Below, piece after piece: positions 7,797 through 64,000 of a stretch of DNA of 64,000 nt; the stretch's first letter is position 1, and the number at the start of each line of letters is the position of its first letter. The DNA comes from Sacculina carcini (Eukaryota; Arthropoda; Thecostraca; Sacculinidae). The stretch lies in NCBI GenBank assembly GCA_916048095.2, contig OU696586.1, positions 888,168 to 952,167 on the forward strand. The letters are read 5' to 3'. The translations under genes were made by a program, and so were the position numbers. The notes below the pieces were generated by a model. That model was given only the letters and a program-made list of their open reading frames with translations. It searched no databases and was not told where the DNA came from.

Positions 7797-7829
7797 GCAT
7801 ATGCACAAGCACACACGCACACAAGCAAA

Positions 7830-7866
<37 letters not shown>

Positions 7867-8394
7867 GCAAGTACACAAACACACACACAAACACACACAC
7901 ACACACATACACACACACAAGCTCACGCACACACACATACACAAACTCACGCACACACACAAACACACGCACATATACACACAAACACACTCACACAAGC
8001 ACATACACACACACACACACATACACACACACACACAAACATATACACACACACATACACACACACAAACTCACGCACACACACAAATACACACACATTC
8101 ACACAAACACACAAACACACAAGCACATACCCAAGCACACACACACACAAACACACACATACAAACATATACACACACACACACATACACAAAAAGACAC
8201 ACACAGGCACACACACACACACACACAAACATATACACACAAGCACATACACACAAAGACACACACACAAACACATACACACAAATACACAAACATATAC
8301 ACACAAACACACACACACACACACACAAACAAACACATACACACACACACACAAACATATACACACAAGCACACACACACACACACACACAATG
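7797..8394. repeat. 600-bp CA-rich minisatellite
   Basis: Almost pure (CA)n broken by AAGCACA, AAACA, ATATACA and CTCACGCA interruptions that recur every 20-60 bases, giving a higher-order pattern. Both strands are open over hundreds of bases as Thr/His or Cys/Val repeats (for example 7521-8465 plus), produced by the repeat rather than by a gene. Confidence 0.9.
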
Positions 8395-11723: not shown

Positions 11724-12734
11724 TCACAAGCGACTCATCCTCATCACCACCACTAAACCACAGGCCAGTGAGAGCCAGCATAGCCGGGACCAAACAGTCA
11801 GCCTATCAGCACTGCTCGAGTACAGAGTGAACGGGTAGAAAAAGTCGGCTGGAAGTCGCAGTTCAACACGCGGCGGCCGCGCAAACTGCGGCATCACCGG
11901 CTTACTCACGTCGACAAAAGTCACCGTAGTTACCAGCATGATACTCCGCCCCTCTTCACGCCAATCATACTGGCTCTTTCTCCCGACTGAGTTGGCCTGG
12001 GAGGACGCCGCTGTGAACCGCACCGACACGCCGAGCAAGACGGCGTTGTGACGGACCGACGAGTACAACACGGTCCAGTGAAGGCGAGTCAGCAGTCCGG
12101 CACACGAGTTCGACGTACTGCTCCCGCCGTCCGTCGACATTTGCGCCGCATCCGGCAGTCGACCTAGCAGAGGCAGCCAAGTGGTGGACGTCCAGTCGCC
12201 GGTGGCCGCCACCATCACCTCGCTCAAGTCGCCGCCATCAGCGTCCGTCACACCTGACATCAAGTGCCGCGTCACGACCTGCTGCCGGCGGCGACAATCT
12301 GACGCCTGATCGTCGTCCGTCAAGCGCAGCCAGCACGCGCTGTACACGTGGTGGCCGAACTTGACGGAGCGTGAGGCGCCGGCCTGACAAGCGCCCGCCT
12401 CATCAACACTGGCAGCCAGTACTGACAGCGGTCTCACTGAGCCAACATTCACCGACGAGTCGCCGTCAGTCTTGCTAGTAGTATTATTGCTACTGCGCGC
12501 TGCCCTCAACAGCGGCAGGCCGACCAGATAGCCGGCCGTTGAGCCGCTGCGACGTGGCCGGTGCGAGGACGACGGCCGACGACTATCAGCACTGACAAAC
12601 TGGACGGCGACAGACAGCGGCGACACGGCAGAACGAGCAGACACGCTGAGAAAGAGAGAGGCGGAGAGCAGCGAGCCACCGCTCACTCTCATCACCAAAT
12701 GATAACTGCTCAACACGTCATCAACCACTGCCAA
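11724..12734 (-). CDS. Tectonic-family protein, 3'-terminal exon (partial)
   Basis: An uninterrupted minus-strand frame of 336 codons with no ATG at its upstream edge (an AG acceptor-like site lies near 12710-12735), so it reads as an exon. Features typical of tectonics (TCTN1-3, ciliary transition-zone proteins of the MKS/B9 complex) are GYLVGLPLL at residues 68-76, the block DEAGACQAG-ASRSVKFGHH at 111-129 followed by Cys134, and a C-terminal segment with VSVRF, TTVTFVDVS and LPADFFYPF at 236-302. A hydrophobic stretch at 315-331 ends the protein. Ser-rich inserts separate the conserved blocks. GC content and CpG use exceed the flanks, as expected for an old host exon. Upstream exons are not firmly identified; 14778-15000 is a candidate. 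The call rests on remembered family motifs, without alignment. Confidence 0.65.
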   Translation of the reverse strand: MAVVDDVLSSYHLVMRVSGGSLLSASLFLSVSARSAVSPLSVAVQFVSADSRRPSSSHRPRRSGSTAGYLVGLPLLRAARSSNNTTSKTDGDSSVNVGSVRPLSVLAASVDEAGACQAGASRSVKFGHHVYSACWLRLTDDDQASDCRRRQQVVTRHLMSGVTDADGGDLSEVMVAATGDWTSTTWLPLLGRLPDAAQMSTDGGSSTSNSCAGLLTRLHWTVLYSSVRHNAVLLGVSVRFTAASSQANSVGRKSQYDWREEGRSIMLVTTVTFVDVSKPVMPQFARPPRVELRLPADFFYPFTLYSSSADRLTVWSRLCWLSLACGLVVVMRMSRL

Positions 12735-12783
12735 TCTCCGTCTCCTGCCAACACTCTCACTCTCATCCTCACCAGCCTGTCAT

Positions 12784-37953: not shown

Positions 37954-38343
37954 CGGTACAATAATGCAATTAAAATCATTTATGCTCATAATTATACTGA
38001 AAAAACAAAATCAAGTGCAAACCATGGACTTTTCAAACTGATTTATCGCTAGAATATTTTCGGATCGTTTTGTTTGTGCACCTCTGGACACAGAATCGTA
38101 GGAATCATGGGAAAAGCTTGTGCCGCCTTGGTTTTGAGCATTGTTTTTGGGAAAAAATGAACAACCTTAGTCCGCAGGTGAATGATTGAAGAAGACGCAA
38201 CTGAAAATTTAGCTGTGAAATTCCTGGCTGCAAGTCTCGTGACTCTTTGTTGAGATCACTACCAGTGCGTGTTGGCTCGCTACCAGCCTTGCACGACTCA
38301 GTCGATCGTGTTGGCAGAGAGGAGAAAGACGTGTCGGTCCAAC

Positions 38344-38626: not shown

Positions 38627-39461
38627 GTGAAAAACATGATAAATATTTTCATCCTAAGTGACGTTTTTCGGACTGTTTGTTGCTGCCGGACGAAGCTGTC
38701 CGAGTCGGTGTGGCGTTGCGACTTGGTGCCGCAGTGCAGGAGACGCACAAATATGCCACAGCCGACGGGTGAGGTCACCATAGCCTCTCATGATGTCGCT
38801 ATACCGGCCGCCTGCCACTTCACACAACGCTGCACGACATCATTCACTGCAGTTTGGCTTCGGCAGGAATCGCAACGGTGCTGGAGCCACGAGACCTGGA
38901 CGTGTAAAAAACTAAACACCAGCCACCACCGTCACTGCCGCTCATGCACTAGTCGAAGCGGTCTAGAGACACCGGTATATCACGGCCGCAGTCAAAAAGT
39001 GCATCACTGCCCCACGCGCGCCCACAAGACACACAATTCAAGAGGACATGTAGGAGGTGGTGGAATCTTGTGGGACCTCTCCCTGAGACAGACAGGGGGA
39101 TTAAGTACATCCTAAACGACACTGATCTATATTCAAAATGGGTTCACACGTTCACCTTACAGGCCAAATCTACAGACCGGGTTTGCGACAATGCTAGATC
39201 TTTTCGAACCTTCAAAGAAAATCATCAGATCAGATGAGGCTAGGGAGTTTTGCAATCAGGTTAATGAAGCACGGTTTTCAGGTGTTCCAGGTGAAGCATG
39301 CTGTGACACACGTCTACCATTCTCAGACCAATAGACAGGTTGAGAGGACCAATGGCACACCGAACGACAAACACCACCAACATATCGGAAGAGGAATCAA
39401 CAAAACTGCTCCCGTTCTATCCCTCATGTTCGGCAGACTACCTCGCTCAATGACGATATGA
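38627..39461 (+). pseudogene. Integrase fragment, copy 14
   Basis: The last full unit before the viral insertion. Carries private changes (CACAATTCAAGAGG, CCTAAACGAC). Confidence 0.8.
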
Positions 39462-39606
39462 CGGTACAATAATGCAATTGAAATCATTTATGCTCATAAT
39501 TATACTGAAAAAACAAAATCAAGTGCAAATCATGGACTTTTCAAACTGATTTATCGCTAGTTATTTTCGGATCGTTTTGTTTATGCACCTGTGGACACAG
39601 AATCGT

Positions 39607-41389
39607 TCAAACCGTCACATCCTTCGATTCGTTCGACCTGCCTGTTGGCGACGCGCTAGCAAAGCGACTCGTCAGCGTCCCGCGGGGTGGGCCAGACTTC
39701 ACGCACGAATACATTGAAGTCGTGCGTCGACCGCTGCCGCCGGAGCGGGAAACCCTCCTGAATGACTTGCTCACACGTGATGGTGACTTGTCTGAAGGTA
39801 TTGGCACGGTGCTGTATGTGCCGCCCGCTGTACGTTTCCCAAGCAATGTCCCGGTGGTACCTGTCACGCCGAACGACGTTTGCTTCTTGCAGGAGACGTA
39901 CGACGCGTATGCGCCCGGCGCGTCGGACTGCGATACCGCATTCGACGACTTCACGAACGCATCTTCAACCATAGGTGTGACAAATGGCAATATGGAGTTG
40001 CGCTTGCCTGTGTTGAGCGATACCATCGCGCCGCCGCAGGAGCGCAACCCATCCGTGCTCCGCACCGCCATTTACCCTGACAAGGCCCTGACCGGAGCCG
40101 AGCTTATGCTCGCATGTAACGAGCGGAATTGGAATGTTCCTGCTCTGATGCCTCCGTCGTCTCGCCTCGTCTTTGAGGTGACCCACACTCGCGATTTCCT
40201 TGATGCGTACTGCATCCCTCGAGCGGAGGAGATCTGCGCTGCGTTTCGTCAAGAGCCCATCGGATGCGACGACGCGTACGTGTCCGAGTGGATTGCGAAA
40301 CTCGACCGTGTCAAGTTGCACAAATACGCCGACTTGCCGGCCCAGGGAGATGCCTCTGAGCGTTATGAACTATCGTTGCGCCCACAGTGCAAGTCCACTG
40401 GGACCGCACCTGTGACCTACAAGGTCACGAAGGGGCAAGTGTTAAACTGCATGGACCCCGCGTTCGTCGCCTACTACTCCCCGCGATTCCAGCAGGTACT
40501 GTCCAGGCTTCGCACTATCCTCGCCCCGCACGTTGTCCTGGCCGTCGGTTACGATGCCGGGCACGTGTCGGGCTTGGTTAACGCGTTCTTGGACCCCGGT
40601 GTCGACTATCGCTACTACGAGTGCGATATGTCGGCCTTTGACAAGTCACTCAACAGATGCATGTTCGGCTCCGTGCTCGCGCTGTACCGCATGGTCCGGC
40701 TTAGCGACGCGGATGCCGAATTGTGGGAGCATCTCCACCGGTGGACAATGTCCCGATCGCGGAACGGGTTGTCGTTTTACACCGCGTATCAGACCAAGAG
40801 TGGCGATCCTGCCACCACCCTCGGCGACACACTTGCCACGATGATCGCCCTCGCGCGGGTAACGCTGGCAGTGCGACCAGATTTGTCGATGTTCATGGGC
40901 GATGATTCGTTGCTCGTCTCGAGGGTGGCCGTACCGATGGCCACGTTCACTGATGACATCGCAACCGCCACCAACTTCACTGCCAAGATGCTCCGCCCGC
41001 CCCTCGGCGGTTTCTGCGGATCTTTCCTTGTGTCAGATGGTAACTCGTCGCGCTATATGTCCGACCCGGTCAAACGTGTCGAAAAACTGGGTCGTCGCGA
41101 CAACCCTGACATCGACCTGCTGGTTGACAGGTATGTCAGCTTCGCTGACCTCACGTCCTGCTACTCCAGCGAAACGCACAACGCTGCCCTTGGGGCAGCT
41201 ATTGCGTGTCGGTACAATGTTGACGTTGACTTCACCGACGCGTTGGCGATCTTGTACCGTCTCGGTCGCGATGTTGACGCATATCTGCGACTGTTTGGTG
41301 TGCGGGTGTCTGCGATAGCACGTGCTGTGCTGTTGCAGCGTGCCCACGCTCGCCTCGGGCGCGGTGACCTCGCCGCGTCACTTGATTAG
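39607..41389 (+). CDS. Endogenous viral RNA-dependent RNA polymerase (5'-truncated)
   Basis: A frame open from the junction at 39607 to TAG 41387-41389, over 590 codons, related to replicase C-termini of positive-strand RNA viruses. Counting from 39722, motif A is DMSAFDKS (302-309), motif B SGDPATTLGDT (360-370), motif C MGDDS (392-396), and FCGSFLV (431-437) with DPVKRVEKLG (448-457) form motif E and the region after it. This pattern, with the FLQETYDAYAPG and ELMLACNERNWNVP blocks upstream, suits the alphavirus-like supergroup (virga/negev/hepe-like). Catalytic Asp residues are kept. There is no ATG at the 5' edge; the first in-frame one is codon 91. GC content is well above the flanking array. 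The helicase and methyltransferase parts are missing, so it cannot be a whole replicase. Confidence 0.85.
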
Positions 41390-41408
41390 CTGCTCGTAGC
41401 GGCTTTAT

Positions 41409-41672
41409 ATGTGTGTCTGTACCATGTCTCGTTTGTGTTGTCACGTGTTTGTGTGTTCGCTACTTGTCGGGGTGGTTCTCTCACACCGCATCGACACTGG
41501 CACCCCACCTTGGTGTGCCAACCTGCGTGCGGCGTTCCTAAAGCGCCGCATCGCCCTTGACAACTTGCTCGTCCGGAGTGGTCTGCCTGATATCAGGCAA
41601 CAACCGTTCCGTGCGAATTTCGAAGCTCTGTTCATACGGAGTTTTCGGGTAGTTCGTTGTCCAACCGCGTAA
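41409..41672 (+). CDS. Small ORF downstream of the viral polymerase
   Basis: An 87-codon frame from ATG 41409 (or ATG 41424), 20 bases after the polymerase stop. Residues 6-25 (MSRLCCHVFVCSLLVGVVLS) resemble a signal peptide or membrane anchor, and the rest is basic (KRR, several Arg). In composition it matches the polymerase rather than the host flank, so it may be the next gene of the integrated virus. I recognise no family. Confidence 0.45.
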   Translation: MCVCTMSRLCCHVFVCSLLVGVVLSHRIDTGTPPWCANLRAAFLKRRIALDNLLVRSGLPDIRQQPFRANFEALFIRSFRVVRCPTA

Positions 41673-42217
41673 GCGGACCCGCGTAAGCGGTTGTAGCGGT
41701 TATCCGCCATTTCTGTGCTGCCGGTTTCTAGGGTTCTTTTCCGGCCTCCTTTGCACCTGAACTCATTCAAATTTGGTTTCTTTCGGCCATTATTCGGAAT
41801 CGGGGTTTCTTATTCATGTCCTTGCCCTTCTTCTGTTTCTTTCTTTCTTTCCTTCCTTTCGGGATAAAAAGGTGGTTTTTCTTCCAGGTCCTCTTACATA
41901 TTCGTTTTACGCACGACCTCGTCCATGTTTCCTCTGTGTCCTGGTGTGAAGCGTCATCACGTCACCGTTCACTCTTCACCTCCATTTGTATCCTTGTCTT
42001 GCTCCGCTTCTGGGTGAGGGAGTCGTGTGGTGGTCTGCGGTTTAATATCATGTGTAAATAATATTGCTGCGGCGTATGTGAGCAGTTTTCGGCGATTGCG
42101 TTTCACACTGTTATTTCTGCTTGTATTTTGTGAGTGATTTTTATATGCGTGTATTTAAATTAATTGTTTGCTGTATTATGTTTTTGCATTGTTTATATAA
42201 GTTATGTATTTAGAAAT
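41673..42217 (+). other. Sequence between the viral ORFs and the LTR-like segment
   Basis: GC content drops after about 41780. Pyrimidine-rich stretches and short hydrophobic frames (41816-42061) are present without a recognisable product. It may be viral 3' untranslated sequence followed by host or retroelement DNA; the border is not visible. Confidence 0.35.
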
Positions 42218-42450
42218 TGTTATGTTCTTACTGCTGCGTGGGCCACACTTGTTTCTGATTGGTCCACGTCTGACCTGGGTCGCTGGCGTGGTACCCCATT
42301 GGCCCACGTCACCACAGGCCGACCCTATAAAGGGACACACACACTCACTGTCGCCCCCTTTTTTCCGTTGTGGTCGTTACGCTGGCTGGTTGTGTCTCAA
42401 TATATAGTGTCTTTGAGTCTTAGTATTGTTTTCTGTAGCTCGTTGCTACA
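42218..42450 (+). mobile_element. LTR-like segment with promoter, joined to viral sequence
   Basis: Begins TGTTATG and ends GCTACA, the TG..CA limits usual for LTRs. It holds two CCAAT-type motifs (GATTGG near 42257, CATTGG near 42297), a TATA box (TATAAA 42326-42331) and an initiator-like TCACTG about 20 bases later. The right end is directly followed by the second polymerase fragment rather than a primer-binding site, and no second LTR is seen. Confidence 0.4.
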
Positions 42451-43108
42451 ATGCCTCTGAGCGTTATGAACTATCGTTGCGCCCACAGTGCAAGTCCACT
42501 GGGACCGCATCTGTGACCTACAAGGTCCCGAAGGGGCAAGTGTTAAACTGCATGGACCCCGCGTTCGTCGCCTACTACTCCCCGCGATTCCAGCAGGTAC
42601 TGTCCAGGCTTCGCACTATCCTCGCCCCGCACGTTGTCCTGGCCGTCGGTTACGATTCCGGGCACGTGTCGGGCTTGGTTAACGCGTTCTTGGACCCCGG
42701 TGTCGACTATCGCTACTACGAGTGCGATATGTCGGCCTTTGACAAGTCACTCAACAGATGCATGTTCGGCTCCGTGCTCGCGCTGTACCGCATGGTCCGG
42801 CTTAGCGACGCGGATGCCGAATTGTGGGAGCATCTCCACCGGTGGACAATGTCCCGATCGCGGAACGGGTTGTCGTTTTACACCGCGTATCAGACCAAGA
42901 GTGGCGATCCTGCCACCACCCTCGGCGACACACTTGCCACGATGATCGCCCTCGCGCGGGTAACGCTGGCAGTGCGACCAGATTTGTCGATGTTAATGGG
43001 CGATGATTCGTTGCTCGTCTCGAGGGTGGCCGTACCGATGGCCACGTTCACTGATGACATCGCAACCGCCACCAACTTCACTGCCAAGATGCTCCGCCCG
43101 CCCCTCGG
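42451..43108 (+). pseudogene. Endogenous viral polymerase, second copy, truncated at both ends
   Basis: Matches 40350-41007 of the first copy at all but about four bases, every one changing an amino acid (P/S, T/P, A/S, F/L). It spans from ASERYELS through motifs A, B and C to LRPPLG and then runs into array sequence (CTCGCTACCAGCC), which adds some 27 foreign codons. Left junction shares ATGCCTCTGAGC with the full copy. Motif E and the C-terminus are absent. Confidence 0.85.
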
Positions 43109-43176
43109 CTCGCTACCAGCCTTGCACGACTCAGTCGATCGTGTTGGCAGAGAGGAGAAAGACGTGTCGGTCCAAC

Positions 43177-43207
43177 ATGTGCAGTAATCTTATTTGCCTG
43201 GCAATTT
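43177..43207 (+). CDS. Signal-peptide first-exon cassette 14 (MCSN type)
   Basis: Thirty-one bases before GTAAGT, with the extra T also seen in cassettes 1 and 19. Confidence 0.35.
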
Positions 43208-43339
43208 GTAAGTGCTACAAAATTGTTCAATTAACTTGTGTTCAACAAGCCTGTTTTAGTGGTAGAGACCGCAATATCATGCTAGTCACATAAAAATATT
43301 TTCATACAAAATAACCATTTTCCAATAAAAACCTAACGA

Positions 43340-43745
43340 ACGATTGTTTAAATCGTATGGTGGTCGTGCAAGCTGTCAAAGGTGCACCTGCAGAGTGGTC
43401 GCACAAACAGCTGGCCGTTACTGTTATTCATGCTACCCTGCCTACTCCACCCATCGCCCATTTCTTTCTCGCCGTCCCCCAGATCTTTCTACCGCGCCCA
43501 GGGGGGCGATACTTGACATGATGCTGTGCAAAACAGCTACAGTCACAGGACACATGGGAACGACAAGCAAACGTTGACAAGAATTCAGTCACGATTTTAT
43601 TGGGAGAAGATGAAAAATGTGTGCCTGATGTCATTGCCCATTATGACAGGTGTCAAGGATTGGAGAACATAAAAACAATGGCTCCCGAACACACACTGTA
43701 ACAAACAAAAATCCAGGTTATATTCAGATAGGCGCGCGTGGACAT
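43340..43745 (+). repeat. Block B, copy 4
   Basis: The Cys-rich frame is open from ATG 43344 to 43577, as in copy 2. CCGTCCCCCAG replaces CCGCCCCCCAG. Confidence 0.5.
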
Positions 43746-47618: not shown

Positions 47619-47875
47619 GTAAGTGCTACAAAATTGTTCAATTAACTTGTGTTCAACAAGGCTGTTTTAGTGGTAGAGACCGCAATATCATGCTAGCCAC
47701 ATAAAAATATTTTCATACAAAATAACCATTTCCCAATAAAAATCTAACGAACAATTTGACAAAATAAAATACTTCCAAATTGCAGGATCTATGGTATTTA
47801 GAGTATGTAATTATAAGTAGTAAGATGAGTAGAAAGCATGTAAGATATATACAGAGTATGTAAATTTTTCCACAG

Positions 47876-47958
47876 AGCATTGCAATGGTGGTGGTCTGCA
47901 TAATAGGCCTGGTAACCACAGGCAGATCATATTACTTCATGGGTGAAGGCGAGCTGAT
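47876..47958 (+). CDS. Candidate exon 2, MVVVC version, broken donor
   Basis: As 21363-21445, in phase with cassette 16. Confidence 0.35.
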
Positions 47959-48144
47959 GACAAAAGTGTAACTGTAAGCGGTACTGTAACTGTAACTATT
48001 CCGCCTGACACGAAGATCAATCCACATTCAGATATATTGTTTTAAAAGTAGAGAGTGTTTGTCTTTGGATAGCTTCCTCCAGGGGAACCGACGTAACGAG
48101 GTGAATGAATGATTGAAGAAGACGCAACTGGAAATTTAGCTGTG

Positions 48145-48256
48145 AAATTCCTGACCTGGACGTGGAAAAAACTAAACACCAGCCACCACCGTCACTGCCG
48201 CTCATGCACTAGTCGAAGCGGTCTAGAGACACCGGTATATCGCGGCCGCAGGCAAA
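48145..48256 (+). pseudogene. Integrase fragment, copy 18 (short)
   Basis: Only the possible zinc-binding region is left (GACCTGGACGTGG to GCCGCAGGC) before the composite block starts. The junction is repeated at 57976. Confidence 0.6.
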
Positions 48257-48820
48257 AAAGTGTCTTCGGTAACTAGACCGTGGGTACCAATTTGGACTCT
48301 TGCTCTGTATGTTTTATGTGGACGTTATATTTGTGGTGCCGTATTATTGTCCATGTTTGCATGTGTTATTTTTTCGAACGGATCGCGCTCGTGAGTAACC
48401 GCAAAAATAAAGTGTCATTATCATTTACGTTCACAAGTCCACCGACAGTGAATCGTCGCTCAACGCACAAAAAAGAGCCGACACACATAACACCCGACTC
48501 ACAGTGGCGCTGGACGGCATCCCGGCGCAAATGCTGTGATCAACAAAGAGCTGTCGCAGCCCGACGTGGCGCGACACGTAGTCCAAGCACGCTTCGGCAA
48601 CAACACTGACTCTGTTGCTGCTGGTGAAGAACCAGCGGTCGATTGTTTATGTAGCCGGTTATTGTTCATATTCTATTTATAAAAAAAACAACACTGTGAT
48701 CCGTGTAAAAGTGTTTTAACTAACAAAAATGAATCATTGTCAGACGAACACTTTTCATATGTTAAAGGTATTCATAGATGATTTTTACTGTATCCTAGCG
48801 ATATCGTTGTTAATATTGTC
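48257..48820 (+). other. Composite block, left part: broken coding-like sequence
   Basis: A frame with TVALDGIPAQ stops, and the next frame continues ANAVINKELSQPDVARHVVQ and ARFGNNTDSVAAGEEPAVD, suggesting one coding region with a frame shift at about 48530. The second copy (58238-58262) has lost about 60 bases here. A short hydrophobic frame lies at about 48310-48400, just before a GTGAGT. No family recognised; viral origin is possible. Confidence 0.35.
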
Positions 48821-49165
48821 TTGTTGTCTTATTTAACTGTAAAGCCGGCTTTCTGGCAGGACGCGGAAAAATTCTGCGTCAAGGCCGTGCCACGGCGCAC
48901 ACAAAATGTTCATCTGATGGCCACAATCTACGGTCTAGACAAGAACGAGAACCAACTGGAAGGCGTCACTAACATCACCCGCGTAACCAACCGAAACAGT
49001 GATGCATTGAACATGGTGCAGGCGCAGTTCGCCACCAAAAAACATCTGGGGAAAGCCATCACGAATAAAAATGGCCACTACGGCTTCATCCGACCCGGCA
49101 CATCTTGTACCCCAATACGGCGGCATTCATGTGTAAAAAACGCAGGTCGTACGACCACAAGATAG
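48821..49165 (+). pseudogene. Unassigned conserved ORF 1, first copy (frame-shifted end)
   Basis: Encodes a 105-115-residue protein beginning near FWQDAEKFCVKAVPRRTQNV and containing ATIYGLDKNENQLEGVTN. No ATG opens it; a CTTTCTGGCAG acceptor-like site lies at 48848-48858, so it could be an exon. A one-base change near ATCCGACCCGG shifts the last 20 codons relative to the second copy. Function unknown. Confidence 0.4.
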
Positions 49166-49250
49166 CTCAGTGCCCGGAGAAAACTAATATTTGTATTTTT
49201 ATTGTTAAATTCGTACGTTGATCCTTGTTAGTTTTCTTTGTTCTTTCCTG

Positions 49251-49592
49251 ATGTATAAAATATGCAGTGATCATGTGTTTGTATTGTTCGATCCTCGAAT
49301 CTATTCGTCGCTTCAGTCAGCCCCGTTTGGCGTCAATTTCAATGACGGTATCAATAACGAAGAGCTGGAGCACCACGTCTATTACAATTACACCAATTAC
49401 AACCACGTCTGGACAGAACGCAATCATCTAGGCATCATCAACACAGATAAAACAACACTCACAATCTTCACACTGGACCCAGCAGAAAACAGTATTCTCA
49501 CCACCAACAATAACACGCTACCTACAGTAAACTATCCTAAAATGATCAGCCTACGCTTCGACGGAAAACCAAACTTCAGAAAACACAAATAG
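49251..49592 (+). CDS. Unassigned conserved ORF 2, first copy
   Basis: From ATG 49251, 113 codons. A short hydrophobic start (FVLFDPRIYSSLQSAPFGV) leads to an Asn/Tyr/His-rich region with an NYT sequon. It ends early compared with the second copy, which reads on. Not recognised; a glycoprotein-like fragment is possible. Confidence 0.35.
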   Translation: MYKICSDHVFVLFDPRIYSSLQSAPFGVNFNDGINNEELEHHVYYNYTNYNHVWTERNHLGIINTDKTTLTIFTLDPAENSILTTNNNTLPTVNYPKMISLRFDGKPNFRKHK

Positions 49593-49678
49593 CACACTAC
49601 GAAGCAATACTTCACAAAACAAACTGAAAACACTAAAAGCTCTCACGGCCACATCATGCGGCAAATCCAAAGAAACAC

Positions 49679-49712
<34 letters not shown>

Positions 49713-50700
49713 CACGACCAGTCATAGAACACACATGCACGACATGGGAGCCCATCATAACACGCGCAAACACCACAAAACACAGTTGTCATTTTGAGAA
49801 GGCAGTGCTGGCTTTAGTCTGGCTCGTCGAACGACACTATCGAGAACCCATGCAGGACACGCTGCTGTGGATAAAGGAAGAGCCCAGCATACACATATCA
49901 AATGTATCACACCTACCAAAAATGTAGCTCTGATCAACTGGTATTTCGGGAGCAAACATATACTACATCCATACCTACTACCACGTATCACGAGTACCTA
50001 CAACGTAGAGAGTAACGCCTGGAAACTGTAGAATTCCACCTGCAGGTGTTTGTGAACTATGTCCTGAAGAGTGAAGCCAACGAAACCTAACTAAATGATC
50101 ACAAAACCAAGGCGACAGTGGAGATCATCTGGAATTTCGCGCAGTCTGAGACAAATCTCACCAATGCCGGACACTAGACTACAGCCAACTGAATAACATT
50201 CACTTTATGATCTACAAACCACTGCTGTTGACCCAATCTAGAGCCTCACCTTACCGTGCTAGAACAGAACAAATCACATCTGGGGTAGATCGGATCGGAT
50301 GTCCCCTCTGTGAAGGTGGTCGATCTTATCGACCATACTAATATGAACACAATTCTCAACATGAACCGCTCAGCTGCAACACCGGTCGAGGCAGTAAGCT
50401 TCTAGACCACTCTTCTAGACGTCTCACACGTCTTCTAGCTTCTAGACACCACAATTTCCAACCTCATTAGACTATAACCACAAAGGTGACATGGTCACTC
50501 CACTCCAAATCAACGACGAAAATCCATATGGATTGCGACCACCCAAATCTAGGAGCTGGGATTTCAGCTGACGATACAGCCAACTGTCACCATTGATATT
50601 GCGCTCCTCAAGAAACAACAATTAGTCCACGCTCGCCAGCTGGTGTCACATCGATCCTACTCATGGCTTAGAAAACTGGCCGACTATTTGTCGTTTTTAT
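49593..50700 (+). other. Unassigned sequence with a CA run
   Basis: Contains a (CA)n tract (49679-49709), then a stretch open in the second copy (LALVWLVERHYREPMQD), then shorter interrupted frames. TCTAGACGTCTCACACGTC and TCTTCTAGCTTCTAGAC motifs repeat near 50400-50440 and again near 50808. No family recognised. Confidence 0.35.
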
Positions 50701-50704
50701 GTTG

Positions 50705-50757
50705 CACGCTACGGCTGCCGATATATATATATATAATATATCGGCAGCCGTAGCGTG
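50705..50757. repeat. Perfect 22-bp-arm palindrome
   Basis: CACGCTACGGCTGCCGAT plus ATAT on the left is matched exactly by its inverse complement ending at 50757, around an A/T loop of about 9 bases. It could extrude as a cruciform or form an RNA hairpin. The same structure is at 60358-60408. Confidence 0.85.
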
Positions 50758-50935
50758 GCTGCCGATGACATATGCCAGCATGGCCCTATATCGGCCGCAT
50801 GTCTCACACGTCTTCTAGCTTCTTCTAGACCGGCGACGGACATCCACTTGGCTAAAAGACACGTCCGGACACGACCTCGGCCTTGCAGCTCACACCGGGA
50901 CACGGCACACTAAATGTGAATATATGTTTCCTGGA

Positions 50936-50975
50936 ATAAAAAGCGTTAGGTTAGGTTAGATTAGGTCAATTGCCT
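50936..50975. repeat. Short TTAGG-like run
   Basis: GTTAGGTTAGGTTAGATTAGG, about four units of the arthropod-type telomere motif, after a TTTCCTGGAATAAAAAGCG end that resembles a retroelement 3' tail with an AATAAA. Too short to be a telomere. Confidence 0.45.
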
Positions 50976-51860
50976 ATCCAGGCATATCAAGTGGCGACAG
51001 CTCAGTGAAAACTGTACTAGGTATAGACGATTCTAAAGTCACTCCCAAACGCAACCTCAAGCCTGCTGTTATGACCATCCGAACCGGCAACACGAATCAA
51101 CACGATCATTATTGATTTGGTGTGTAAAAATAACGCTAAACCGCAATAATTGAATGAGAGCCAACAGCCGACCGTCAAAAACAACTGCGACGTTCTATCT
51201 AATAATCTCGTCCATAGTATAATTTCCACCAAACAATCGGCGACGGCTCAATTCGTGATTAGGTAATTCCACCAAGACGTGTCGCACGGAGAGAGGTGCG
51301 TTTCATGCACCGCACACAGGCTGTGGTTGTGCAAGCAGTAGGTGGTGGTGGGTGTTGTATGTATGACCGACACGAAGCCAACACAGCGCAACCTCCTCAA
51401 ATCTCTCCCGGCGATAACCGCACGTCCAATATCAGGCTTCACTGCTTTTAGCTTTTGAGGACCACTTTCATCCCAAACACGCTGTCACCGCAATCGAATG
51501 AATTGATTCATGTCTGATAACTGAAATCTAATAAATTGATGAATGATTCATGTCCGAAAACGGAACAGGAAAATTAAAATTAATGTGAGTAAAACCTGCT
51601 GCGCGATCGAGTGACGCGCCTAAGCGTTCTAGTTCGCGATCCTGGTCGGCAACGCGTCGCAGAGGTATCACGATATCTCCTGAAGGAAGACGATATTGTA
51701 TCGAGTTATGTCAGGAGCAATCCTAATGTAAAGACGCAAAACACTACTTACGCCGCGAGGTTTTCGTCGGCAAATTTCTGCCTATCAACCGATGTAATCC
51801 CTTTATTAATGAGGTATTGCGTCAATGTAACAATTTGCTCATGAAATCAATAAAAAAATG
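50976..51860. other. Unassigned sequence in the composite block
   Basis: No firm gene. A minus-strand stretch near 51600-51690 (IPLRRVADQDRELERLGASL) looks coding but is isolated. Flanking LINE RNase H remnants on the same strand suggest part of a decayed retroelement. Confidence 0.35.
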
Positions 51861-51953
51861 CGGGCGGCAGCGCGCTTTGCGGCTTTGTCGGCCCGCTCAT
51901 TACCCACAATACCAACGTGGGCCGGAATCCAGCACAATACTACGCGCTTGACC
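51861..51953 (-). pseudogene. LINE RNase H fragment
   Basis: Read on the minus strand: VVLCWIPAHVGIVGNERADK followed by AAKRAAARI. This is the C-terminal RNase H signature (W-x-P-x-H-x-G-I-x-G-N-E-x-A-D-x-x-A-K) of I/Jockey/R1-type non-LTR retrotransposons, which degrades the RNA strand of the hybrid. Only about 30 residues remain. The second copy is at about 61517-61611. Confidence 0.75.
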
Positions 51954-52001
51954 AATGCCACCTAGACTACTATCTACTATCTAGTATCTAGGTGGCGTTG
52001 G
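51952..52001. repeat. 15-bp-arm hairpin
   Basis: CCAATGCCACCTAGA (51952-51966) and TCTAGGTGGCGTTGG (51987-52001) pair with one G-T position around a 20-base loop of TCTA/CTAT repeats. It lies at the edge of the RNase H fragment and is duplicated at 61622-61671. Confidence 0.75.
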
Positions 52002-52194
52002 CTTGACCTGCTGATGAAGCCGGTTATGCATTACGTGAACGCGTTGTATAAATGGGTGAATATTAAAGCTTGAGATGGATGATATTGCGCTCAAAGAGTC
52101 AGAGAGAATAAAAAACATGATTGAGAAGATGAGTGAATGAAAAGCAAGTACAAGAAGGGCAAGTATGATTTATGAAGTATGACATTTATTCTCA

Positions 52195-52318
52195 ATGTTT
52201 GGTGAAAAACTGTATATATGTGGAGATTTTAATTTTCGGGTGGAGAATCCTCATTTAGAGGCCCATTCACAATCTTTCCAGAAACATATTGAAATGAGTG
52301 GACTCACTAATAATGTAC
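52195..52318 (+). pseudogene. LINE endonuclease fragment
   Basis: ATG-initiated frame with LYICGDFNFRVENP, the conserved G-D-F-N motif of the apurinic-type endonuclease domain of non-LTR retrotransposons, then SFQKHIEMSGLTNNV. It breaks off at AATGTACAT where viral helicase sequence begins. In the second copy Phe of the motif is changed to Ile. Confidence 0.7.
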
Positions 52319-52322
52319 ATAT

Positions 52323-53381
52323 GTGGTGCGCCACGTGCAACGTTTCGCACCACTTCGCGAAACCCACGCGCCCATTGCAATCTGCCCTTGCTTCAATCCG
52401 TACAGTTTTTCTATACGCATTTGTTGTGAGGTCGCTCCGCTGTTACAAAATCGTGCAAGAACAGTTCGTAGTTTGATACGGTGGCATGATCGCAGGGAAG
52501 TGACAAGCAAACATTTGAGGTACGTCACAGCAACATACGCTAATGCCACCGATCGTGAAATGACGATGCACCCACAGTCAGAAACAGCTGACAGACGAAA
52601 CAAGACACTGATCCCGATTTGTGATAATTTTATCTTTGACACACGTCTAATCAAGCATGGACGTAAACACATCGTATTCATGCCAAGCAAAGCTGGTTGC
52701 GATCAACTTCGTGATAGAATCCGGGCGTCAACAAAACACCAACATGTGTACACGTATTATCGAATGCACGATCGTGCACAAGGCAATGTGCAGCCGTTCA
52801 ACACGCATGATGACAGTATTCTGATCTGTACCAACGCTGTCCAGAGTGGAATCACGCTCATGAGGGCAACCGACTGCCGAACAGAGCTGTTTGAACACTA
52901 CCAGCCAGACGATGATATGGTGCTCATGCAACGTCCAATATCAGACGCATCGATGTTGCAACGGAAGGGCAGGGTAGGCAGAACGACAGACGAAGGTCAT
53001 TACCACTACCCGTCTACCGAAGAGGGCGGCCAATCAGGTCTTCGCGACGACAGTGCAAAGCTCGACAAAATCATCCAGTATCGGGTCATCCTTCTACACT
53101 ATTCAATCGGTGTGAGTAGTGGCAGGCCCGAACTGAAGTATGGCAAAGCTTGCCGAGACACCAGCGAGGCGTGGCGAGCGACGAATGTTGACATCACCAA
53201 CCGTAACAGCACAAACAGCTGGCGCTGGCAAGCCAGATACTTCAGCAAAAAGATTATCAAAAAGCTCTTTAGCAAAGATGATCGTCAAACACCTGCGATC
53301 GCCGAGCTCGAGAAATTGCTGAGAAGGTACGCAACCCAATCTGGGACCTCAACAACTCTGCTGCGGATGTGGCTGCTCTAG
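52323..53381 (+). CDS. Endogenous viral SF2 helicase fragment (flavi/poty-like)
   Basis: A 352-codon open frame without ATG at its edge (first in-frame ATG is codon 80). From 52323, motif III is TATY (69-72), motif IV VFMPSK (118-123), motif V ICTNAVQSGITL (168-179) and motif VI QRKGRVGR (213-220), in the order of NS3/CI-type superfamily 2 RNA helicases of positive-strand RNA viruses. Motifs I and II (ATP and magnesium binding) are missing, so it cannot be an active helicase. The Arg-Gly-rich motif VI followed by TTDEGHYHYPS differs from host DEAH helicases. The end (TSTTLLRMWLL) replaces viral sequence from about codon 340. It probably comes from a different virus than the polymerase, since alphavirus-like replicases normally use SF1 helicases. 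Confidence 0.75.
   Translation: MVRHVQRFAPLRETHAPIAICPCFNPYSFSIRICCEVAPLLQNRARTVRSLIRWHDRREVTSKHLRYVTATYANATDREMTMHPQSETADRRNKTLIPICDNFIFDTRLIKHGRKHIVFMPSKAGCDQLRDRIRASTKHQHVYTYYRMHDRAQGNVQPFNTHDDSILICTNAVQSGITLMRATDCRTELFEHYQPDDDMVLMQRPISDASMLQRKGRVGRTTDEGHYHYPSTEEGGQSGLRDDSAKLDKIIQYRVILLHYSIGVSSGRPELKYGKACRDTSEAWRATNVDITNRNSTNSWRWQARYFSKKIIKKLFSKDDRQTPAIAELEKLLRRYATQSGTSTTLLRMWLL
53284..53345 (+). repeat. Direct repeat, left copy, in the helicase tail
   Basis: GTCAAACACCTGCGATCGCC and the following 40 bases (to CAATCTGGGAC) recur at 54341-54405 with one difference. The two copies flank about 1 kb of unrelated sequence. Confidence 0.8.
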
Positions 53382-57336: not shown

Positions 57337-57593
57337 GTAAGTGCTACAAAATTGTTCAATTAACTTGTGTTCAACAAGCCTGTTTTAGTGGTAGAGACCG
57401 CAATATCATGCTAGCCACATAAAAATATTTTCATACAAAATAACCATTTCCCAATAAAAATCTAACGAACAATTTGACAAAATAAAATACTTCCAAATTG
57501 CAGGATCTATGGTATTTAGAGTATGTAATTATAAGTAGTAAGATGAGTAGAAAGCATGTAAGATATATACAGAGTATGTAAATTTTTCCACAG

Positions 57594-57676
57594 AGCATTG
57601 CAATGGTGGTGGTCTGCATAATAGGCCTGGTAACCACAGGCAGATCATATTACTTCATGGGTGAAGGCGAGCTGAT
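57594..57676 (+). CDS. Candidate exon 2, MVVVC version, broken donor
   Basis: Same as 47876-47958 but out of phase with cassette 19 by the extra T. Confidence 0.3.
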
Positions 57677-57862
57677 GACAAAAGTGTAACTGTAAGCGGT
57701 ACTGTAACTGTAACTATTCCGCCTGACACGAAGATCAATCCACATTCAGATATATTGTTTTAAAAGTAGAGAGTGTTTGTCTTTGGATAGCTTCCTCCAG
57801 GGGAACCGACGTAACGAGGTGAATGAATGATTGAAGAAGACGCAACTGGAAATTTAGCTGTG

Positions 57863-57976
57863 AAATTCCTGACCTGGACGTGGAAAAAACTAAACACCAG
57901 CCACCACCGTCACTGCCGCTCATGCACTAGTCGAAGCGGTCTAGAGACACCGGTATATCGCGGCCGCAGGCAAAAA
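57863..57976 (+). pseudogene. Integrase fragment, copy 21 (short)
   Basis: Same truncation and junction as copy 18. Confidence 0.6.
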
Positions 57977-58478
57977 AGTGTCTTCGGTAACTAGACCGTG
58001 GGTACCAATTTGGACTCTTGCTCTGTATGTTTTATGTGGACGTTATATTTGTGGTGCCGTATTATTGTCCATGTTTGCATGTGTTATTTTTTCGAACGGA
58101 TCGCGCTCGTGAGTAACCGCAAAAATAAAGTGTCATTATCATTCACGTTCACAAGTCCACCGACAGTGAATCGTCGCTCAACGCACAAAAAAGAGCCGAC
58201 ACACATAACACCCGACTCACAGTGGCGCTGGACGGCATCCCGGCGCAAACGCTTCGGCAACAACAAACTCTGTTGCTGCTGGTGAAGAACCAGCGGTCGA
58301 TTGTTTATGTAGCCGGTTATTGTTCATATTCTATTTATAAAAAAAACAACACTGTGATCCGTGTAAAAGTGTTTTAACTAACAAAAATGAATCATTGTCA
58401 GACGAACACTTTTCATATGTTAAAGGTATTCATAGATGATTTTTACTGTATCCTAGCGATATCGTTGTTAATATTGTC

Positions 58479-58793
58479 TTGTTGTCTTATTTAACTGTAA
58501 AGCCGGCTTTCTGGCAGGACGCGGAAAAATTCTGCGTCAAGGCCGTGCCACGGCGCACACAAAATGTTCATCTGATGGCCACAATCTACGGTCTAGACAA
58601 GAACGAGAACCAACTGGAAGGAGTCACTAACATCACCCGCGTAACCAACCGAAACAGCGATGCATTGAACATGGTGCAGGCGCAGTTCGCCACCAAAAAA
58701 CATCTGACGAAAGCCATCACGAATAAAAATGGCCACTACGGCTTTATCCGACCCAAACATCTTGTACCCCAATACGGCGGCATTCATGTGTAA
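58479..58793 (+). CDS. Unassigned conserved ORF 1, second copy
   Basis: Keeps a longer consistent end than the first copy (NGHYGFIRPKHLVPQYGGIH to a stop). Otherwise the same protein, with GK/TK differences. No ATG opens the frame. Confidence 0.4.
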   Translation: MLSYLTVKPAFWQDAEKFCVKAVPRRTQNVHLMATIYGLDKNENQLEGVTNITRVTNRNSDALNMVQAQFATKKHLTKAITNKNGHYGFIRPKHLVPQYGGIHV

Positions 58794-58882
58794 AAAAACG
58801 CAGGTCGTACGACCACAAGATAGCTCAGTGCCCGGAGAAAACTAATATTTTTATTTTTATTGTTAAATTCGTACGTTGATCC

Positions 58883-59569
58883 TTGTTAGTTTTTTCTTTT
58901 CTGGTGTATAAAATATGCAGTGATCATGTGTTTGTATTGTTCGATCCTCGAATCTATTCGTCGCTTCAGTCAGCCCCGTTTGGCGTCAATTTCAATGATG
59001 GTATCAATAACGAAGAGCTGGAGCACCACGTCTATTACAATTACACCAATTACAACCACGTCTGGACAGAACGCAATCATCTAGGCATCATCAACACAGA
59101 CAAAACAACACTCACAATCTTCACACTGGACCCAGCAGAAAACAGTATTCTCACCACCAACAATAGGACGCTACCTACAGTCCTAAAATGCTCAGCATAC
59201 GCTTCGACGGAAAACCAAACTTCAGAAAACACAAATAGCACACTACGAAGCAATACTTCACAAAACAAACTGAAAACACTAAAAGCTCTCACGGCCACAT
59301 CATGCGGCAAATCCAAAGAAACACTAACACACACACACACACACACACACAAAACACGACCAGTCATAGAACACACATGCACGACATGGGAGCCCATCAT
59401 AACACGCGCAAACGCCACAAAACACAGTTGTCATTTTGAGAAGGCAGTGCTGGCTTTAGTCTGGCTCGTCGAACGACACTATCGAGAACCCATGCAGGAC
59501 ACGCTGCTGTGGATAAAGGAAGAGCCCAGCATACACATATCAAATGTATCACACCTACCAAAAATGTAG
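58883..59569 (+). CDS. Unassigned conserved ORF 2, second copy (longer)
   Basis: An open frame of 228 codons without an ATG start. The N-terminal hydrophobic stretch is followed by an Asn/Thr-rich region with at least seven N-x-S/T sequons (NYT, NRT, NQT, NST, NTS, NAT, NVS), a (Thr-His) run encoded by a CA microsatellite near the middle, and a C-terminal part with ALVWLVERHY. The first copy is cut short after TTNNNTLPT by small indels. The sequon density suggests an extracellular or viral surface protein, but no family is recognised and coding function is unproven. Confidence 0.35.
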   Translation: MLVFSFLVYKICSDHVFVLFDPRIYSSLQSAPFGVNFNDGINNEELEHHVYYNYTNYNHVWTERNHLGIINTDKTTLTIFTLDPAENSILTTNNRTLPTVLKCSAYASTENQTSENTNSTLRSNTSQNKLKTLKALTATSCGKSKETLTHTHTHTHKTRPVIEHTCTTWEPIITRANATKHSCHFEKAVLALVWLVERHYREPMQDTLLWIKEEPSIHISNVSHLPKM

Positions 59570-60357
59570 CTCTGATCAACTGGTATTTCGGGAGCAAACA
59601 TATACTACATCCATACCTACTACCACGTATCACGAGTACCTACAACGTAGAGAGTAACGCCTGGAAACTGTAGAATTCCACCTGCAGGTGTTTGTGAACT
59701 ATGTCCTGAAGAGTGAAGCCAACGAAACCTAACTAAATGATCACAAAACCAAGGCGACAGTGGAGATCATCTGGAATTTCGCGCAGTCTGAGACAAATCT
59801 CACCAATGCCGGACACTAGACTACAGCCAACTGAATAACATTCACTTTATGATCTACAAACCACTGCTGTTGACCCAATCTAGAGCCTCACCTTACCGTG
59901 CTAGAACAGAACAAATCACATCTGGGGTAGATCGGATCGGATGTCCCCTCTGTGAAGGTGGTCGATCTTATCGACCATACTAATATTAACACAATTCTCA
60001 ACATGAACCGCTCAGCTGCAACACCGTTCGAGGCAGTAAGCTTCTAGACCACTCTTCTAGACGTCTCACACGTCTTCTAGCTTCTAGACACCACGTCTCA
60101 CACCACAATTTTCAACCACATAGGACGATAACCACAAAGCGACATGGTCACTCCACTCCAAATCAACGACGAAAAATCTATATGGATTGCGACCACCCAA
60201 ATCTAGGAGCTGGGATTTCAGCTGACGATACAGCCAACTGTCACCATTGATATTGCGCTCCTCAAGAAACAACAATGGGTCCACGCTCGCCAGCTGGTGT
60301 CGCATCGATCCTACTCATGGCTTAGAAAACTGGCCGGCTATTTGTCGTTTTTATGTT

Positions 60358-60408
60358 GCACGCTACGGCTGCCGATATATATATATAATATATCGGCAGC
60401 CGTAGCGT
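60358..60408. repeat. Palindrome, second copy
   Basis: Same arms as 50705-50757 with a loop two bases shorter; arm sequence is unchanged although flanking bases have diverged. Confidence 0.8.
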
Positions 60409-61516
60409 GGCTGCCGATGACATATGCCAGCATAGCCCTATATCGGCCGCATGTCTCACACGTCTTCTAGCTTCTTCTAGACCGGCGACGGACATCCACT
60501 TGGCTGAAAGACGCGTCCGGACACGACCTCGGCCTTGCAACTCACACCGGGACACGGCACACTAAATGTGAATATATGTTTCCTGGAATAAAAAGCGTTA
60601 GCTTAGGTTAGGTTAGATTAGGTCAATTGCCTATCCAGGCATATCAAGTGGCGACAGCTCAGTGAAAACTGTACTAGGTATAGACCATTCTAAAGTCACT
60701 CCCAAGTCAAAGTCAGTCACGCAACCTCAAGCCTGCTGTTATGACCATCCGAGCCGGCAACACGAATCAACACGATCATGATTGATTTGGTGTGTAAAAA
60801 TAACGCTAAACCGCAATAATTCAATGAGAGCCAACAGCCGACCTTCAAAAACAACTGCGGCGTTCTATCTAATAATCTCGACCATAGCATAATATCGACC
60901 AAACAATCGGCGACGGCTCAATTCGTGATTAGGACACTCCACCAAGACTTGTCGCACGGAGAGAGGTGAGTTATATGCACCGCACACAGGCTGTGGTTGT
61001 GCAAGCAGTAGGTGGTGATGGGTGTTGTATGTGTGACCGACACGAAGCCAACACAGCGCCACCTCCTCAAATCTCTTCCGGCAATAACCGCACGTCCAAT
61101 ATCAGGCTTCACTGCTTTTAGCTTTTGAAGACCACTCTTATCCCAAACACGCTGCCACCGCAATCGAATGAATTGATTCATGTCTGATAACTGAAATCGA
61201 ATAAATTGATGAATGATTAATGTCCGAAAACGGAACAGGAAAATTAAAATTAATGTGAGTAAAACCTGTTGCGCGATCGAGTGACGCGCCTAAGCGTTCT
61301 AGTTCGCGATCCAGGTCGGCAACGCGTCGCAGAGGTATCACGATATCTCCTGAAGGAAGACGATATTGTATCGAGTTATGTCAGGAGCAATCCTAATGTA
61401 AAGACGCAGAACACTACTTACGCCGCGAGGTTTTCGTCGGCAAATTTCTGCCTATCAACCGATGTAATCCCTTTATAAATGAGGTATTGCGTCAATGTAA
61501 CAATTTGCTCATGAAA

Positions 61517-61672
61517 TCAATAAAAAAATGCGGGCGGCAGCGCGCTTTGCGGCTTTGTCGGCCCGCTCATTACCCACAATACCAACGTGGGCCGGAATCC
61601 AGCACAATACTACACGCTTGACCAATGCCACCTAGACTACTATCTACTATCTAGTATCTAGGTGGCGTTGGC
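61517..61672 (-). pseudogene. LINE RNase H fragment and hairpin, second copy
   Basis: The minus strand again reads CWIPAHVGIVGNERADKAAK. One change (CTACACGC for CTACGCGC) alters the preceding residue. The CCAATGCCACCTAGA hairpin follows at 61622-61671. Confidence 0.7.
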
Positions 61673-61864
61673 TTGACCTGCTGATGAAGCCGGTTATGCA
61701 TTATGTGAACGCGTTGTATAAATGGGTGAATATTAAAGCTTGAGATGGATGATATTGCGCTCAAAGAGTCAGAGAGAATAAAAAACATGATTGAGAAGAT
61801 GAGTGAATGAAAAGCAAGTACAAGAAGGGCAAGTATGATTTATGAAGTATGAAATATATTTTCA

Positions 61865-61985
61865 ATGTTTGGTGAAAAACTGTATATATGTGGAGATATA
61901 AATTTTCGGGTGGAGAATCCTCATTTAAAGGCCCATTCACAATCTTTCCTGGAACATATTGAAATGAGTGGACTCACTAATCATG
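61865..61985 (+). pseudogene. LINE endonuclease fragment, second copy
   Basis: ICGDINFRVENP, where the Phe of the conserved G-D-F-N motif is replaced by Ile; cut by the mariner insertion at TA 61986-61987. Confidence 0.65.
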
Positions 61986-61987
61986 TA

Positions 61988-63293
61988 CAGGGTGGCGCCG
62001 GTAAATAACCACAAATTTCAAACCTGTATTGCGAGTACACTATTTTGTGCAGAGCAATAACTTTTGTTATATATGTTCAAGGCTTTATAGTAGTTGTGTG
62101 CTATAGCAAGAGGGAACGTTGCAGCTGAAAATGATAACATAATAAATGAAAAGGCACGCTTTCATTGTGGCGCTTCACGCCGGCAACGAGGCGCCGGAGG
62201 TCGCCACCTTCCTCAAGGTCGATAGAAGCTTCGTGTACAAAGACAAGCTTAGCTTGGATAAGTGGGAGCGACGTCCAGTCTGTGGCAAAGCGGAAAAAAG
62301 CATTCCCGACGATCTGATGCCATCAGAGACGACGATTTCATCGCCATAGTCCAGAACATCGTCGGCGATGACCCAAGCAAGTCAATCCCAGTCATCGCTC
62401 GGGAGCTGCAGGTGCATCACAAGACAGTGTGGTGTTTCATCCACGAAGATTTACGCTACAGCTCATATGTGATGAGGCGGGGTCAGTTTATGACACAACA
62501 AACCAAGGAAAACCGCTGAGAAAAAAACAAAAAGTTGATGTGTGAAATCAAGCATCCCGAGGAACCCAAAATGCTTTGGTTCTTCTCCGACGAGAAAAGT
62601 TTCGATCAAGTTCAAAAGGTGAACGGGAGGATCGACCGGTGGTTGTGTCAGAACCCCGAGCAAAGCTCCACGTCATGCACACAAAGTTCCCAACCACCAT
62701 CATGGTTCTCAGCGTTGTCTCCAACCAGGTAGACGTCATGCCTCCGCACTTCTTCGAGAAAGGACTTCGGGTGAACGCCGAAGAGTATGTGAAGGTTCTC
62801 CGTGATGTCGTGAAGCCCTGGATCGAACAAGTGGCCAAGGGAAGGCCGTATGTCTTCCAGCAAGACTCGGCACCTGCCCACAAGGCCAAGGCGACGCAGG
62901 AGTGGATGAGCGCCAACCTGCACAGCCACATCACGCCCTAGTTCTGGCCGCCAAACTCCCCGGACCTGAACCCGCTCGACTACTACCTGTGTGGCGTAGT
63001 CGAGAGGGACACCAACAAGCGCCCACACAACACTCTCGACTCCCTGAAGTCAGCCGTCAAGCAGGTGATGGTCAAGATGGACAAGGCCATGCTGACCAAG
63101 ACCTGCGCCCGGTACAGACCACGGATAGAGGCCGTCATCGCTGCGGAGGGGGGATTCACCGAGTGAAGTGTGATCGACAGGTCGCCATCAGCTACCCCAG
63201 TTCAAAGCTTTCATCCAATGTACTGACTTTTGTCAAAAAACAAATGTCATTAATGTGGAGCACATATTGTCTTCATTTAGCGGCGCCACCCTG
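61988..63293 (+). mobile_element. mariner-type transposon (Tc1/mariner superfamily)
   Basis: A 1,306-bp element with ends CAGGGTGGCGCCGGTAAAT and, inverted, CAGGGTGGCGCCGCTAAAT (18 of 19 identical), flanked by TA on both sides (61986-61987 and 63294-63295). The unoccupied site is present in the first duplicate at about 52313-52318 (ATGTACATATG). It therefore inserted after the duplication, and the whole insertion is defined to the base. Confidence 0.9.
62146..63165 (+). pseudogene. mariner transposase, inactivated
   Basis: A cut-and-paste transposase in pieces. Order: N-terminal helix-turn-helix (HAFIVALHAGNEAPEVATFL, 62149 on), a second DNA-binding helix region (SIPVIARELQVHHKTVW), first catalytic Asp in WFFSDEKSFD (about 62577-62606), second in YVFQQDSAPAH (about 62850-62880), third in WPPNSPDLNPLDYY (about 62947-62990). 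With Asp of LDYY as the third residue the spacing is 37, as in DD37D (maT-like) mariners. Lesions: a frame shift near 62270-62310, TGA at 62517, a frame shift near 62640-62660 and TAG at 62939. The element cannot move by itself. Confidence 0.85.
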
Positions 63294-63295
63294 TA

Positions 63296-64000
63296 CATAT
63301 GTGGTGCGCCACGTGCAACGTTACGCACCACTTCGCGAAACCCACGCGCCCATTGCAATCTGCCCTTGCGCAATCCGTACAGTTTTTCTATACGCATTTG
63401 TTGTGAGGTCGCTCCGCTGTTACAAAATCGTGCAAGAACAGTTCGTAGTTTGATACGGTGGCATGATCGCAGGGAAGTGACAAGCAAACATTTGAGGTAC
63501 GTCACAGCAATACGCTAATGCCACCGATCGTGAAATGACGATGCACCCACAGTCAGAAACAGCTGACAGACGAAACTAGACACTGATCCCGATTTGTGAT
63601 AATTTTATCTTTGACACACGTCTAATCAAGCATGGACGTAAACACATCGTATTCATGCCAAGCAAAGCTGGTTGCGATCAACTTCGTGATAGAATCCGGG
63701 CGTCAACAAAACACCAACATGTGTACACGTATTATCGAATGCACGATCGTGCACAAGGCAATGTGCAGCCGTTCAACACGCATGATGACAGTATTCTGAT
63801 CTGTACCAACGCTGTCCAGAGTGGAATCACGCTCATGAGGGCAACCGACTGCCGAACAGAGCTGTTTGAACACTACCAGCCAGACGATGATATGGTGCTC
63901 ATGCAACGTCCAATATCAGACGCATCGATGTTGCAACGGAAGGGCAGGGTAGGCAGAACGACAGACGAAGGTCATTACCACTACCCGTCTACCGAAGAGG
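63296..64000 (+). pseudogene. Endogenous viral SF2 helicase, second copy, broken
   Basis: Matches 52317-53025. A one-base loss near CCCTTGCGCAATCC and a two-base loss near CAGCAATACGC shift the frame over about 40 codons, and AAG is changed to the stop TAG in CGAAACTAGACAC. Downstream motifs IV to VI are still readable to the window end. Decay of this copy but not of the first is notable. Confidence 0.8.

Follow-up and report, generated by a model that had tools for sequence, protein, structure and literature searches.

The joining of RNA virus sequence to retroelements is a known phenomenon. The element eBxnv-1 of Bursaphelenchus xylophilus is described as a nodavirus-like ORF in an LTR retroelement, for which copy-choice capture is proposed (PMC5177903); the NIRVS of Aedes are flanked by Ty3/Gypsy elements, and template switching is proposed for them (PMC5497376); and certain insect LINE proteins contain viral helicase domains with full motifs and are transcribed (PMC5563155). 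Endogenous elements of the Martellivirales (PMC12548735) and of Hepe-Virga viruses (PMC6955108) are likewise reported from arthropods, and the description of such captured polymerases as uncommon, given in a preliminary description of the present locus, is hence only partly right. A crustacean survey (PMC4573495) reports bunya-, mononega- and totivirus-like elements and a horseshoe crab survey (PMC12282059) mostly chuvirus-like ones, the term "virga" being absent from the main text of both.

The insert described here is a well-resolved further case of this phenomenon. It lies in the window, by which we mean the whole stretch of 64,000 nucleotides that was analysed, on contig C21 of a 264-Mb genome assembled in 43 contigs, and the chromosome that carries it is likely that of an animal. 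It shares with eBxnv-1 the joining of a positive-strand RNA virus polymerase to an LTR retrotransposon. However, eBxnv-1 is reported to be a single-copy viral ORF inside a degenerate Bel/Pao-related element with low-level expression (PMC5177903), whereas here an alphavirus-like polymerase is joined to the LTR end of an element from a young Gypsy family, together with a second viral piece, in a satellite array. Similarly, the Aedes NIRVS are viral integrations associated with Gypsy LTR elements, but they are those of mosquitoes and their viruses, with Gypsy reported as flanking the integrations (PMC5497376), while in the present case the virus is alphavirus-like, the Gypsy 3' end is directly joined to the viral sequence and insert-free sites are at hand. 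The arthropod Hepe-Virga and Martellivirales elements belong to the same broad virus group as the insert, as far as the RdRP_2 domain shows; yet the Hepe-Virga copies are reported as mostly highly fragmented and without nearby retrotransposon elements (PMC6955108), in contrast to the long open frame and the LTR seen here. Among the matches listed from the open-licence literature, no closer published case was found. The locus offers an unusually clean record of an RNA virus sequence entering a chromosome. Single-base resolution is available for the viral pieces, for the retroelement that was probably the source of the reverse transcriptase (RT), for the LTR terminus and for the insert-free array units. 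It also documents an alphavirus-like lineage without a close relative in the collections searched, with at least two divergent types in one genome.

The first and largest viral part, polymerase fragment A, occupies 39607-41389 (all features of the insert are on the plus strand), with its stop codon at 41387-41389. The stop-to-stop frame, 39509-41389, comprises 626 codons, of which 593 (39608-41386) are derived from the insert, preceded by ~33 that come from in-frame reading of the array. Residues 177-575 of this frame match PF00978 (RdRP_2) of Pfam with an E-value of 2.4e-62. Among solved structures, nsP4 polymerases of alphaviruses alone proved related, and they made up four of the eight rows of the structure search (E 4.4e-16 to 3.5e-11). 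The other four rows were cytoglobin at E 0.34-0.36, which are chance matches. The translation contains DMSAFD (40625-40642), SGDPATTLGDT (40799-40831) and GDD (40898-40906), which we take to be the polymerase motifs A, B and C, respectively, at the positions expected for them. By its RdRP_2 profile and these three motifs, the translated fragment A is assigned to the alphavirus-like polymerase group. The preliminary description, which had reported an alphavirus-like polymerase in a eukaryotic chromosome, with over 590 open codons and with motifs A, B and C including the GDD, was thus accurate on these points. It had also left room for chance as the origin of the open frame, which is at odds with the homology and with the controls: among 2000 Markov sequences of the same dinucleotide make-up, the longest stop-free run was 362 codons, against the 593 of fragment A. 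The replicase is represented in fragment A by its polymerase end only, the earliest in-frame ATG occurs at 39992, and NCBIfam gave no match for the window polymerase.

The whole insert measures 3,500 bp (39607-43106) and is embedded in a tandem array of a ~1.5 kb repeat, which flanks it on both sides in one contig of the assembly; array homology stops at 39606 and resumes at 43107. Here the preliminary description was right about the polymerase frame and about the junction to array repeat at 39606, but not about the end of the insert, which it set at 41389, overlooking a Gypsy LTR and a second polymerase fragment that precede the true end at 43106. The left junction, 39606/39607, is exact against all eight array units compared, and at the right junction GGC (43107-43109) is common to virus and array, making a 3-base overlap. 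Every one of these eight units is free of the insert. Compared with seven of them, 174 bp of array is missing at the insert, and compared with the remaining one, 170 bp; the stretch that matches the lost 174 bp lies at 38100-38273 (plus strand) in a neighbouring unit. By eye, the array unit (39078-39480 and other units) resembles a decayed retroelement integrase. When the RT and integrase of L023, one of the Gypsy elements discussed below, were used as tblastn queries, they gave no match in the window, and the unit would therefore be either outside the L023 family or too decayed.

Within the insert, the order is polymerase fragment A, 486 further bases, a Gypsy 3' end with its LTR, and polymerase fragment B. 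The 486 bases between the polymerase stop codon and the Gypsy part (41390-41875) have a G+C content of 0.516 and a CpG ratio of 1.14, and are presumably the viral 3' region. They found no second match among the best 40 of 155 candidates scored, a list crowded by LTR copies, and Rfam had no match within 39500-43400, this stretch included.

The Gypsy part consists of 150 bp (41876-42025) from the very end of a Ty3/Gypsy retrotransposon's inner part, which match four fetched elements, L023-L026, and of a complete LTR with the termini TG and CA (42026-42450), which matches other copies in the genome. For 41876-42450 as a whole there are at least 43 matches, one being the window copy and 42 showing 83-98% identity, from the best 40 of 155 candidates scored; among the matches listed, those elsewhere that start from the same point (41876) show 91-98% identity. 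In all four fetched elements the two LTRs are 99.3-100% identical, with their starts 5.0-5.1 kb apart, and three of the four have 4-bp target duplications (GTAT, AGCC and CTAC), that of L026 being not resolved. In L023, the one element annotated, the encoded domains follow the order of Ty3/Gypsy elements (protease, RT, RNase H, integrase). Judged by these copies, 41876-42450 is part of a young multi-copy Ty3/Gypsy family. Its match at 41876 opens in a run of T, and its LTR is intact to the terminal CA, directly before fragment B. At 5 of 425 sites the window LTR has substitutions absent from the 17 rows compared (13 distinct LTRs), and its mean distance to the other LTRs is 1.8%, against means of 0.7-1.5% for the others among themselves. 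Given this greater distance, the insert possibly predates the latest burst of the Gypsy family, and its youngest elements, by a modest margin.

Polymerase fragment B (42451-43109) is a copy of 40350-41008 that keeps motifs A-C and is 99.4% identical to fragment A, with four substitutions over 659 sites. Its first base, the A at 42451, agrees with the viral sequence and also with the nucleotide that succeeds the LTR in an intact Gypsy element. The composition of the insert probably marks it as a young chimeric non-retroviral endogenous viral element, made via retroelement reverse transcription and captured at a break in the array. We propose that retroelement enzymes would have copied RNA of an alphavirus-like virus into cDNA in a germ cell. 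The young Ty3/Gypsy family that contributed the 3' end and LTR joined to the viral piece would be their most likely source. A template switch at 41875/41876 would have produced a viral/Gypsy cDNA; this would have been end-joined to a second viral cDNA piece at 42450/42451; and the joined cDNAs would have been captured by end-joining at both outer ends, at a break in the satellite array where 174 bp of array was lost. The intact LTR end just before fragment B is as would be expected of a linear cDNA end. At the 41876 junction, the joining of separate DNA pieces, rather than template switching, would also fit. Against this explanation stand the larger mean distance of the window LTR and the placing of fragment B, which is where a product of homologous recombination would have it.

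The latter recalls a route in two steps, which we regard as possible though rather unlikely. On this account, 39607-41008 would have integrated in the array, and a circular viral/LTR cDNA, comprising 40350-41875 with the Gypsy 3' end and the LTR, would have entered later by one homologous crossover. Such a crossover would yield the observed order of fragment A, LTR and fragment B, with the near-identical 659 bp overlap of the two fragments and an LTR complete up to fragment B; but it requires an extra, unseen circle, and the four differences between A and B fail to place the crossover.

The capture in the array is accompanied by further copies in the same genome. With 40000-41389 as a nucleotide query, all seven candidates proved to be matches—fragments A and B, two copies on contig C35 and three on contig C37—a count that holds at the DNA level for this query only and is a lower bound. 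The C35 copies span 40174-41299 of the window and sit in a tandem duplication that is identical over the 5,027 bases fetched. Their frame, too, is open, for 568 codons spanning a 9-base gap, and they differ from fragment A by 13 substitutions over 1117 sites in addition to this gap. The flanks of the C35 site are themselves repeats, and insert-free relatives of the site, matching on both flanks, were found at seven of the nine loci checked, representing five distinct sites; the downstream match is absent at L032 and L033 in this comparison. At the C35 site the viral piece, with a short run of filler, has taken the place of target sequence, the replaced stretch being 11 bp at six loci and 9 bp at L031, a partial match, and no target duplication was seen at the insert site relative to the insert-free loci.

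The C37 copies are more distant, with 58-59% amino-acid identity to the window polymerase over 172-176 aligned positions (residues 438-609), and three stop codons are common to all three. Given this identity and the shared stop codons, their sequences are best read as a separate, older capture of a related virus. Two of them (L010 and L012) have, 3' of the viral piece and in the same sense, sequence like the C-terminal part of a reverse transcriptase, while the third (L011) keeps 153 of the 685 downstream bases. Of 356 candidates, 111 are homologous to the stretch 818-1570 of L010, and 24 of these have PF00078; the four with a named organism are all from crustaceans, the best being those of Petrolisthes cinctipes (65%) and Chionoecetes opilio (63%), a faint hint that the host itself may be a crustacean. 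From its look we take this reverse transcriptase to be of the LINE type, PF00078 showing RT only. In all three C37 copies, an ORF1-like repeat is found upstream of the polymerase piece; a zinc knuckle in it scores E 0.25, below its cut-off, and the repeat is ~79-83% related to 48426-49183 and 58145-58841 of the window. In L010 (818-3293), the upstream frame is continuous with that of the polymerase, and together they comprise 449 codons. The C37 copies resemble the insect LINE proteins with viral helicases in being part of a positive-strand virus replicase within non-LTR retrotransposon sequence, but differ from them in being a polymerase piece and in sharing three stop codons (PMC5563155).

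All three loci lie in repeats and two are joined to retroelement sequence, and a mosquito element is reported to limit its cognate virus (PMC7522710). These points would speak for repeat arrays acting as piRNA sources in which the viral pieces provide an inherited template for small RNAs directed against viruses, a proposal that concerns their use rather than their origin. We consider it improbable, and simple neutrality accounts for the measurements. In its broadest and equally speculative form, the host lineage would repeatedly turn alphavirus-like RNA into DNA by means of its own retrotransposons (the Gypsy on C21, the LINE on C37) and deposit it in satellite and repeat arrays, possibly as an inherited small-RNA memory against a virus group that still circulates.

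The polymerase frame itself bears no sign of purifying selection, although power is low with 15 differing sites. These 15 distinct sites, from the comparison of A, B and C35, comprise 3 synonymous and 12 non-synonymous changes, and neutral mutation of the frame was computed to give 25-30% synonymous ones. If the differences between A and C35 represent decay after insertion, each has changed by ~0.6%. Counting substitutions only, the probability that an unselected frame contains no stop is ~0.75 at 0.6% divergence, 0.57 at 1.2% and 0.40 at 2%. Selection is thus not needed for the open frame, as the unselected stop-free probability at this age is 0.57-0.75, and by this comparison of the copies the frame fits youth, not function. 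Of the origins offered in the preliminary description, recent capture is therefore probably correct, whereas selection is not borne out by a ratio that is, at this low power, as neutrality predicts. The insert seems to be a relic of recent date that is ageing neutrally, and not a working gene.

That the frame is instead a domesticated host gene under selection seems very unlikely. The 593 open codons with motifs A-C, and the C35 frame that is also open, would agree with it; but the non-synonymous changes include D>Y, R>G and D>N, the frame lacks an ATG until 39992, the flanks are satellite, and the open frame has an appreciable probability without selection, as calculated above. Satellite arrays assemble poorly, but viral sequence mis-joined to an array contig, against which the preliminary description had itself cautioned, is scarcely credible for a locus whose viral sequence is fused to a host LTR and has more copies on C35, in a tandem duplication and with insert-free relatives of the site, and on C37, with stop codons, all the more as an assembly of DNA should not contain an RNA virus; the sequence evidence favours a real integration.

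As to the virus, searches in which the best 8000 candidates were scored found two distant relatives of the window polymerase, P0002 and P0003. Scans of viral contigs with the polymerase, a two-row alignment, P0002 and P0003 recovered no relative, and a phage collection had no near match. The nearest relative, P0002, comes from a JGI contig and has an RdRP_2 domain fused to a C-terminal NADAR domain (E 1.8e-23); in NCBIfam, the latter is named as an N-glycosidase domain, and there is a weak match, far short of the cut-off, to an anti-phage protein. Structure prediction of the window polymerase jointly with P0002 reached a pLDDT of 29, too low for the model to be of use.

Elsewhere in the window, 47619-53025 and 57337-64000 form two large related blocks with 96-99.7% identity, one of which contains a Helicase_C frame at 52314-53381 (E 1e-07). 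An inverted repeat of 253 bp (25290-25542/27551-27803), 98% complementary and with its arms 2,008 bp apart, could be a DNA transposon. A CA-rich simple repeat of ~580 bp lies at 7810-8391. Finally, the minus strand at 11724-12779 has a frame with a Tectonic domain (PF07773, E 3.4e-07), which we take to be a ciliary gene, as would suit an animal host.
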